A stretch of 64,000 nucleotides of DNA from Actinopolyspora mzabensis (GTDB taxonomy: Bacteria; Actinomycetota; Actinomycetes; Mycobacteriales; Pseudonocardiaceae): NCBI RefSeq assembly GCF_900101095.1, contig NZ_FNFM01000007.1, forward strand, positions 1 through 64,000. Reading direction: 5' to 3'. Of the stretch, positions 3,697 through 32,236 are shown in pieces. Position 1 is the stretch's first letter. Each line of letters opens with the position of its first letter. Both the position numbers and the translations under genes were made by a program. The notes under the pieces are model-generated. The model worked only from the letters and a program-made list of their open reading frames with translations, searched no databases and was not told the DNA's origin.

Positions 3697-4106
3697 TCAC
3701 CGCCGGGCGGTGGGCTCCACCCGCCGAACGCACCACCAGAGCGACAGCAACGCCACGACCGCGAGCAGCACATAACAATCCCCGATCAAATGCTGCGCGG
3801 GTGTCCAGGCCAGTTCGCGGCGCTGCCCGTGCGGCAGGAAGTGACAGGGAACCAGGACGAGTTCGACACGGGCCGCGCCAACGCGCCCATGACCGACTGG
3901 TCGCTGTCGCCTCCGCCGAACAGGTAGACGAGGCACAGCGCGCTCAGGACGAGCGGCAGCATCAACGAGGCGAGCACGAGCGAGGCGCGCCGACGCCGAA
4001 CCACCGACGCGCGGAGGAACTTGGCGACGCGTCGACTCGGTCTTCGGCGCCCCGCTACGGATCCGAGGGGTTCGTGGCTCTTCGTGGTGGCTGTGTCGGA
4101 GGACAC
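3697..4106 (-). pseudogene. Small two-helix membrane protein gene, apparently frameshifted
   Basis: Two adjoining minus-strand frames seem to be halves of one gene. The first half, from a GTG at 4106, has a basic N-terminus and a hydrophobic helix (SLVLASLMLPLVLSALCLVY), then a GGGDSDQS segment. It runs into a stop at 3786 after losing plausible composition. The second half, in the -1 frame, picks up near 3880 with LVLVPCHFLPHGQRRELAW and a second hydrophobic helix (CYVLLAVVALLSLWW), ending at 3697. A one-base deletion between about 3850 and 3890 would explain it; a sequencing error or frameshifting is possible. I do not recognise the family. It lies between pyrF and mihF on the same strand. 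Confidence 0.45.
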
Positions 4107-28773: not shown

Positions 28774-30415
<1,642 letters not shown>

Positions 30416-31420
30416 TCACCTGACGGCGCTTTGCCAGTCGCGCCACCGCCACAACGACCAGTCGCACCAGGCAGGCGGGAAGCCCATCTCGTTCAGGGAA
30501 CGTCCGGTAGGTGGGAGGACTGTGATCAGCAGGTCGATGAGATGGTCGCGCCACCGCTGCCACGTGTTCGCGTCGGCGCTCTCGGCAAGGAGGAACAGCA
30601 CGAGGCACAGCGGGCCGAAGACTCGGGAGAGCTGCGTGGTCGCCCCGGTACGCAGTGGCGCTAAAAGCTCGATCGGCCCCAGATGTTTCGAAGCGATCTG
30701 AACGTCCATATTACGGTTCCACAGCCGCGAGTGGTGGGCGCAGACGTTGCGCAGGTAGTTGATCACTTGTAGCCAGTTGGCGAGAGCTGAGCCGTTGCCC
30801 GCGCCAGTGGAGTCAACAACGCCGAGGTCGCCCGCGATCTCGTCCCGGTCACGTCTCTTGAGGCCGCTGTAGAGGGTGGAGATCCCGCCGAAATCCAGAA
30901 CCTCGGTCACGACCCATGTCGGCAGCCAACCGTCATACTTGACGCAGAAGTGCTTGACGAAGTCTTCGCTGGATCGCTGCTAGGCGTCCAGCGTACGGCG
31001 TATCCATTCCTGGTAGCGGCTGGGTTTGTCTCCGGTTGAGTTGTCGAAGCGGGCGTCGAGGTTGGTCGGGTCGAGATGCGCGAAGGGATCACGGCGCCCC
31101 AGGACGTGGCCGACCTGAACACGAACGGCGATCTCGATGCGTTCAAGAGCATCGAGCAGGTGCAGCCTCAACCGACGATCGAAGTCGTAAAGACCGACGA
31201 CCTGATCAAGACGGGTTCCGGGAACGAAGTCATCCATTCGTCCCACTCCGTTCGGATCGGGCTGGCGATAGGGATACCAGTAGCCACTGAGCCGGTAATA
31301 CCCCACGGTACGCAGGAGATGCTGCGCGTACTCGGAATCAGCGATAATCAGCCCGCGGGTGGACAACAGCTGCACCTGCTCGTGCATGCCCAGATGTGGT
31401 TTGGTGTACGCCTCAGCCAA
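30416..31420 (-). pseudogene. Abi_2 (AbiD/AbiF-type HEPN) abortive-infection gene with an in-frame amber codon
   Basis: Read through, the frame encodes about 334 aa matching Abi_2 (PF07751) end to end: TKPHLGMHEQVQLLSTRGL and GYYRLSGYWYPYR at the start, LYDFDRRLRLHLLDALERIE in the middle, then DFVKHFCVKYDGWLPTWVV and NYLRNVCAHHSRLWNRNM. The last holds the HEPN ribonuclease motif R-x4-H (RNVCAH). One TAG at 30980-30982 (codon 147) interrupts it; both halves are in the same frame and show no other damage, so a CAG-to-TAG change is likely. The TTG at 31420 has AGAGGG six bases upstream; a GTG at 31447 lacks a ribosome binding site. The truncated product would lack the nuclease motif. Confidence 0.85.
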
Positions 31421-31454
31421 GCACGCCCTCTTCCGGCGTCCGGACACAAGAAAA

Positions 31455-31487
31455 CCAGCCCGTGATCACAAAGATCAGAGGGGCTGG
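31455..31487 (-). ncRNA. Hairpin RNA preceding the Abi_2 gene (abiF-motif-like)
   Basis: In the Abi_2 direction, CCAGCCC pairs with GGGCTGG and an inner TGATC pairs with GATCA around the loop TTTGT, separated by a small internal loop. TTTTCTT follows at once, giving a terminator-like 3' end. It stops 34 bases before the TTG start. Abi_2/AbiF genes are known to be preceded by a small structured RNA (the abiF motif, recalled from the literature) thought to act with the protein, so a separate short RNA is plausible. A plain attenuator is the alternative. Confidence 0.6.
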
Positions 31488-31501
31488 CCATGTTACTGAA
31501 A

Positions 31502-31507
31502 ATGGTA
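31502..31507 (-). promoter_or_regulatory. Possible -10 box for the Abi_2-associated RNA
   Basis: TACCAT on the minus strand fits the actinobacterial -10 pattern TANNNT and lies about 15 bases before the hairpin, so a transcript would begin almost at the stem. I see no strong -35 box. The remaining 31508-31720 stretch up to aroK has no supportable gene. Confidence 0.3.
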
Positions 31508-31720
31508 GCAGAAGATGTCCGTCGACCGCGGCTCCCCGTACTGAACGCCACTACGACCAGGCCATGCCACTGTTTCCGGCCCTACCAGCAGGACATGACT
31601 CGGTCATGGAATCGCTGAGATACACCGCGATGCGGAGATGATTCCGATCATCCCACGGTACCCGTCGCGGCTCGGGCCGTACCCGCCGAGGTCGAGACTC
31701 GTTACCGCAGGCACCTGCAC

Positions 31721-32236
31721 CTAGCTGGCGGCACCGCCGAGGCGGGGCAACAGGTCGTGGACGATCTCCGCGGGGGACGACTCGTCGGTGTCGACCTCCC
31801 AGACGGCGACCTCGCGATAGAGCGGCAGCCGCTCGCGCAGCAACGCCTGGAACGTCGCCCTGGGATTCACCCCGGTCAGCAACGGCCTGGGGGCGGACAG
31901 CCCGGTCCGACGTACCCCCTCGGCCAGGCCCACCGACAGGAACAGCACCGGATGCCCCGCCAGCAGCGACCGATTCCGGTCGGTGGTCACGGCTCCCCCG
32001 CCCAGCGCGAGCACGCCCGAGTGCTCGGCCAGCGCGGCGAGCAGAGCACGTGTCTCCAGCTCCCGGAAGGCCGGTTCACCGTCGTTGGTGAAGATCTCCG
32101 GTATCGTCCTGCCCGCCAGTGCCTCGACGTCGGTGTCGGTGTCCCGGAACGGCACCCCGAGGCGTTCGGCGAGCAACTTCCCCACCTCGGTCTTGCCCGC
32201 ACCGGGTGGTCCGACGATCACCAACCGCGGGCTCAT
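31721..32236 (-). CDS. aroK: Shikimate kinase
   Basis: 171 aa. Phosphorylates shikimate at the 3-hydroxyl. Walker [12 protein letters not shown] at residues 9-19, the shikimate-binding DTDTDVEA and the [11 protein letters not shown] segment are present; the lid Arg is in [11 protein letters not shown] at 32236 overlaps the aroC stop codon (ATGA). Followed downstream by the Abi_2 insertion instead of aroB. Confidence 0.97.

Follow-up and report, generated by a model that had tools for sequence, protein, structure and literature searches.

Between the aroK and aroB genes, the window (the whole 64,000-nucleotide stretch of Actinopolyspora mzabensis DNA analysed here) carries an insert on the minus strand, which holds a broken abi_2 gene for an AbiD/F-type HEPN RNase toxin and, in front of it, a short hairpin preceded by a -10-like box (Table 1). 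The minus-strand open frame running from 31447 to 30416 has a single internal stop, a TAG, before its terminal TGA. Translated across the TAG, abi_2 matches 184/184 profile positions of PF07751 (190.8 bits, E = 6.8e-56), and the two halves also match this profile separately and above the cut-off (87.8 bits before the stop and 89.6 bits after it). PADLOC labels both halves AbiD, and an NCBIfam search gave no match. The RNVCAH sequence, which corresponds to the HEPN R-x4-H motif, lies downstream of the TAG within the same frame. In AbiFCd, R202 and H207 of this motif are needed for toxicity (PMC12373285). A working AbiF-type toxin has an uninterrupted frame through the HEPN motif, and the frame in the window is interrupted by the TAG.

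Table 1. Features of the abi_2 locus, in window coordinates.
Feature	Positions	Strand	Remarks
Insert between aroK and aroB	30350..31720 (ends approximate)	minus	Absent at the site in 7/10 genus genomes
abi_2 (AbiD/F-type HEPN RNase toxin) gene, broken	30416..31420	minus	TTG start 31420-31418, TGA stop 30418-30416
Pre-stop part of abi_2	30983..31420	minus	146 codons; PF07751 positions 1-100; without the HEPN active-site motif
In-frame amber codon TAG	30980..30982	minus	Codon 147, after 146 sense codons; from the frame read and the profile match
Post-stop part of abi_2	30419..30979	minus	187 codons; PF07751 positions 107-184; carries the active-site motif
RNVCAH, HEPN R-x4-H motif	30734..30751	minus	Read from the sequence; motif role from PMC12373285
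Shine-Dalgarno-like GGAAGAGGG ahead of the TTG start	31426..31434	minus	Read from the sequence; similar in homologue L004
Hairpin RNA, probable antitoxin RNA, 48 nt	31446..31493	minus	Outer stem of 9 bp, internal loop CUC/C and an inner stem, ending in a T-rich run
-10-like box TACCAT	31502..31507	minus	18 nt upstream of the stem, the most frequent distance in homologues
Sequence missing from sister genome G009	30939..31437	minus	499-nt deletion, boundaries accurate to about 1 nt
Sequence missing from sister genome G007	30590..31406	minus	817-nt deletion, boundaries accurate to about 1 nt

The sequence-only reading had placed here an Abi_2/AbiF-type HEPN gene among the aro genes, cut by one in-frame amber codon, with both halves in the same frame, the family motifs kept and the R-x4-H motif behind the stop; the frame and the PF07751 search bear out this description. 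Its start at 31420 is plausible, as the TTG codon stands behind GGAAGAGGG in the same way as in the intact homologue L004. The latter comes from another genus (genome G014), shares 74-77% amino-acid identity with the abi_2 of the window, contains no internal stops and has no aro genes near it in the stretch retrieved. A further intact homologue, L046 from Blastococcus, shows 77% identity. AbiF units are reportedly the stock from which Cas13 originated, the RNA of the unit being described as a forerunner of the guide. The proposed kinship with Cas13 nucleases holds at the family level: an 11-row profile (ten homologues and the post-stop part of the abi_2 in the window) matches one solved structure, PbAbiF (PDB 8vz6), with an E value of 2.1e-60 over nearly the whole chain. 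No phage carrier of this abi_2 branch was found by a pattern scan or by a protein scan of viral contigs, both scans being too narrow to argue against a phage origin, and a tblastn search with the post-stop part returned 11 phage and 292 plasmid records, all with less than 60% identity. We know of no phage test for this branch.

The hairpin in front of the gene was absent from the earlier reading. It folds better than shuffled sequences (z = -3.3 for a 61-nt stretch and -2.8 for 101 nt), and the leaders of homologues have the same arrangement of hairpin and then gene. Scanning yields an RNA class defined by an ACAY lead, a 9-bp outer stem, a CUC/C internal loop, an inner stem closed by a U-A pair and a T-rich run, and members of this class precede abi_2 genes in both actinobacteria and proteobacteria. 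Alignment A2 comprises 18 rows from 17 loci (20 scan rows, with L089, L120 and L124 removed and L067 added) and has 14 pairs, with 98.4% of the cells paired, a percentage inflated by the outer-stem pairing that the row-picking scans required. Double changes are seen in 7/14 pairs of the 18 rows, compared with a shuffled mean of 3.8 (5/500 shuffles reach 7), and the covariation is 0.506 versus 0.228 in shuffles, none of the 500 reaching the observed value. The U-A closing pair is present in 18/18 rows, and the CUC internal loop and the ACAY lead are conserved. A simple promoter and terminator scan reported no sigma-70 promoter and missed this hairpin, which lies outside its loop limit.

As the rows were chosen for outer pairing, a covariance search with model R2 and the spacing of a TANNNT box are the stronger tests. 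Model R2 was built from 15 rows, with the window, L004 and L046 left out, and it recognizes the hairpin of the window at 54.9 bits (E = 1.9e-14) as well as those of the genus genomes G009, G007, G001 and G005. On seven aro sites that lack the insert (L030 and L033-L038) it gave nothing above 12.5 bits. A relaxed detector finds a hairpin with a T-run upstream of 80/106 distinct abi_2 loci versus 48/530 shuffles; the same detector places hairpins in 36/475 regions upstream of other ORFs (mechanical ORFs of at least 200 aa, with many of these regions lying inside coding DNA). A TANNNT box, which was not a criterion in any hairpin scan, stands 16-21 nt before the stem in 72/80 of the abi_2 hairpins versus 8/475 control regions. 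The 106 loci are all those that are distinct and have 200 nt upstream among 148, after removal of 23 duplicates, 18 loci that lacked an N-terminal match and one locus that was too short. The first, strict detector had found 41/106 loci versus 8/530 shuffles and gave a few evident false matches.

With model R1, scores above 45 bits were obtained in G000, G007, G009, G014, G001, G005 and G208, all of which have abi_2 or a remnant of it; of these, only G001 and G005 are independent of the model, because G000, G014 and G208 are included in it and G007 and G009 share the hairpin of the window. Genome G053, which has an intact abi_2, scored 27.4 bits. Weak matches (24-29 bits) were also found in G806, G554, G368 and G122, and the stretches around weak matches (L156, L157, L189 and L190) gave no abi match. 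Other hairpin types, with GATCAGCCCG, GACCGGTTC, GGCCAGCCTTCC and CAGGCTCGC stems, stand in this position ahead of abi_2 in L006, L010, L042, L120 and other loci. When model R2 was applied to 35 loci with other hairpin types, 22/35 had a match with E <= 0.1 that included the hairpin arm picked out by the detector, and for 17 of the 22 E was <= 0.01; off-place matches comprised one in L135 and three in L060 and L043, one of the three with E <= 0.01.

Several observations concern abi_2 loci elsewhere. In Kribbella antiqua (L049) tandem hairpins of the class, at 3826-3871 and 3946-3992, precede abi_2, an arrangement that recalls the two motifs of RCd22. Hairpins were absent from 26 abi_2 loci; among ten ORFs tested upstream of such genes, 9/10 encoded type I restriction specificity subunits (Methylase_S) and lay immediately ahead of abi_2 (L084, L086, L088, L089, L096, L104, L105, L113 and L115), and 1/10 was gyrase B. 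An abi_2 gene beside hsdS thus seems to do without this hairpin RNA. Fragments of abi_2 follow hairpins outside the genus in L143 (G208), L146 (G467) and L142 (G241), and the best abi_2 match covers less than 60% of the profile in 5/18 matched genomes.

Membership of the hairpin in the Rfam abiF family, RF03085, was rejected. No match at E <= 5 was obtained in window positions 30300-31800, 12 further loci of the same RNA class gave no match at the gathering threshold, and L006, L007, L008, L010, L011 and L042-L045 likewise had no match. RF03085 does score above gathering upstream of abi_2 in 4/15 homologue loci (L012, L013, L016 and L026), so the hairpin occupies the place of a known antitoxin RNA. 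The RNA of the window shares this position and a CCUCU element with RF03085 but differs from it in base-paired layout, and the absence of matches in the window and in the 12 class loci makes it a sister class and not a member. We found no description of this class in the open literature; a prior description is possible, the main paper on AbiF origins lying outside the scope of the search.

AbiFCd/RCd22 of the Clostridioides difficile prophage phi027 resembles the locus in its promoter, hairpin RNA, T-run and closely following abiF gene; transcription of RCd22 starts at its own promoter ahead of abiF and for the most part ends at a terminator, and the RNA binds the protein and counters its toxicity (PMC12373285). 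RCd22 has two RF03085 motifs on about 100-130 nt, whereas the window has one 48-nt hairpin unmatched by RF03085. AbiF/AbiFr (PbAbiF, PDB 8vz6) likewise joins a homologous HEPN protein with an R-x4-H motif to a short structured RNA ahead of the gene, and AbiFr reportedly binds PbAbiF, its bulged bases restraining the RNase (PMC12737573). In the window, by contrast, the toxin is cut by a stop and the RNA is of another hairpin class. The lactococcal AbiD/AbiF abortive-infection proteins belong to the same protein group as this abi_2 (PMC12373285), although the gene in the window is chromosomal and broken. With a covarying hairpin upstream of the gene and a putative promoter at a fixed -10 spacing, the locus has the anatomy of an AbiF-type RNA toxin-antitoxin unit. 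By analogy with AbiFr and RCd22, the hairpin is probably the RNA antitoxin of the abi_2 toxin, and its CUC internal loop may play the restraining part of the bulged bases in AbiFr.

A T-rich run just ahead of the start codon would also suit a leader that serves solely as a transcription attenuator or terminator and binds no protein, and RCd22 itself acts in cis through premature termination (PMC12373285). We consider this reading unlikely. The CUC loop, the U-A closing pair in every row and the ACAY lead are conserved beyond the needs of a terminator, the RNA does bind protein in both RCd22 and AbiFr, and termination and protein binding can coexist.

The history of the site was followed in a genus sample of ten genomes, that of the window included. 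The insert is present in 3/10: at full length and with the TAG in the genome of the window, and with deletions in G009 and G007. The aroK-aroB spacer is 98-238 bp in the 7/10 genomes that lack the insert, so that in this genus, contrary to what had been stated, aroK and aroB do not normally overlap; the overlapping pairs in the window are aroC/aroK and aroB/aroQ. The comparison with sister genomes brought to light other lesions of the same gene. The deletion in G009 starts 10 nt inside the open frame and reaches past the TAG, both deletions are out of frame and the TAG codon itself is deleted in both sister copies, which leaves no position there to compare with the TAG.

The insert copies are far more alike than the genes that flank them. 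Counted over the spacer, the hairpin, the region where the gene starts and the end of the gene that the copies share, the window differs from G009 at 8/804 positions, compared with 25/171 third positions in aroK and 33/369 in aroB; for G007 the corresponding values are 9/485, 24/171 and 37/369. The 104 nt adjoining aroB (five and four mismatches), which are probably not part of the insert, were excluded from the insert counts. Fisher tests gave 1e-13 and 6e-11 for G009; with G007, the test against aroB gave 1e-7. Because the copies at the aro site are only 1-2% different while aroK third positions differ by 14-15%, the lesions there are young, and the copies share an ancestor younger than the flanking genes. 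Transfer or recombination would account for this younger ancestor, and the three lesions arose later.

Two further genomes of the genus, G001 and G005, carry the unit at another locus, about 50 kb from aroB and between genes that resemble, by eye, those for a CDP-alcohol phosphatidyltransferase and EF-G. Only about the first 20-28 toxin codons remain after the hairpin in these copies, followed by unrelated sequence; the break points differ slightly, and the truncations may represent one event or two. The unit is thus carried by 5/10 genomes, with a whole toxin in 0/5 and a model-recognised hairpin in 5/5. The absence of a whole toxin over two loci requires at least four lesions. Protein searches of the ten genomes found no copy of this abi_2 branch without a hairpin. 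The only other abi_2 found in the genus is in G005, where the toxin of the window type is truncated: locus L014, on a 94.8-kb contig (C1), has an abi_2 with no interruption that belongs to another branch (about 29-46% identity), and RF03085 matches there below threshold.

The hairpin and the -10 box are oriented like aroB and are brought nearer to it by the sister deletions, and transcription starting at the hairpin promoter could continue into aroB. That the insert is retained since its promoter now feeds aroB, with the RNA as a passenger, is nevertheless distinctly improbable: 7/10 genomes manage without the insert, and the remnants in G001 and G005 sit elsewhere.

The TAG is best read as a real and recent inactivation. 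The gene has no other frame lesion, the insert copies are little diverged and the sisters carry different lesions, all in favour of the recent inactivation of a toxic defence gene that had been proposed; the phase-like silencing and amber suppression offered alongside it are not supported. No repeat or switch is seen, and the relatives carry deletions, which are not reversible states. An assembly error, leaving abi_2 intact in the organism, would account for a single base in an otherwise perfect frame within one 24-contig draft assembly, but is very improbable: 4/4 sister copies in the genus are independently broken by larger changes, and assemblies of comparable completeness seldom carry such base errors. 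Suppression or leaky read-through of the TAG, giving some full-length RNase under control, is extremely unlikely, for while the post-stop frame is open for 187 codons with all family motifs kept and two of the three codons that differ in the region shared with G009 carry synonymous changes, the youth of the lesion also explains this openness, the intact homologue has a sense codon at the TAG position, the sister copies at the aro site are dead by deletion, so function has not been kept, aroK next door has TAG as its own stop codon and 0/49 typed tRNAs in the draft genome (a 50th match being weak and partial) have a CTA anticodon. No ribosome-binding site was seen by eye at GTG 30910, a possible restart for the post-stop part.

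The gene family, the lesions, the site, the hairpin class with its covariation, the fixed promoter spacing and the retention of the RNA together make it likely that the locus is a two-part RNA/toxin unit with a dead toxin, recently inserted, the toxin having been lost separately in the sisters. We infer how such a unit would be transcribed, bind its RNA, exert toxicity and be triggered. The promoter would drive a short hairpin RNA, with the gene for the AbiD/F-type HEPN RNase close behind. As long as the unit works, transcription would mostly end at the hairpin, and the RNA would hold the RNase in check by binding it; once released by phage infection or stress, the RNase would cut RNA and halt growth. 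In the genome of the window no active RNase is expected, because the amber codon cuts abi_2 before its active site, while the promoter and the RNA remain and the hairpin RNA may still be made. The unit, which three sister species share, would have entered between aroK and aroB recently, and the toxin would have been lost separately in each, with the same outcome at the second locus in two more.

The toxin was lost, and what is, by analogy with the known units, probably its antidote was left behind. On the simplest reading, the toxin is shed for its cost, and the RNA either does no harm or takes longer to decay; cost as the driver of the loss is what we infer. Losing the antidote before the toxin would presumably be lethal. 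Retention of the RNA may reflect mere slowness of decay. It is quite unlikely, in our estimate, that orphan antitoxin RNAs are a stable end state in which the hairpin is kept and still disarms incoming AbiF-type toxins; in G005 the TANNNT box is lost and one base of the CUC loop is changed, which counts against a maintained RNA function. If it were true, an orphan hairpin RNA would protect its host from being poisoned by mobile AbiF units or becoming addicted to them; G001 and G005 would illustrate this state, and the window would show it at an early stage.

More broadly, the locus points to a wide RNA class outside the Rfam abiF model, ahead of AbiD/F genes in both bacterial groups, and supplies a set of naturally dead toxins that still have their RNA. 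The restraint of the RNase by RNA, and the fate of the RNA after toxin loss, therefore become testable with the intact homologues in laboratory strains.
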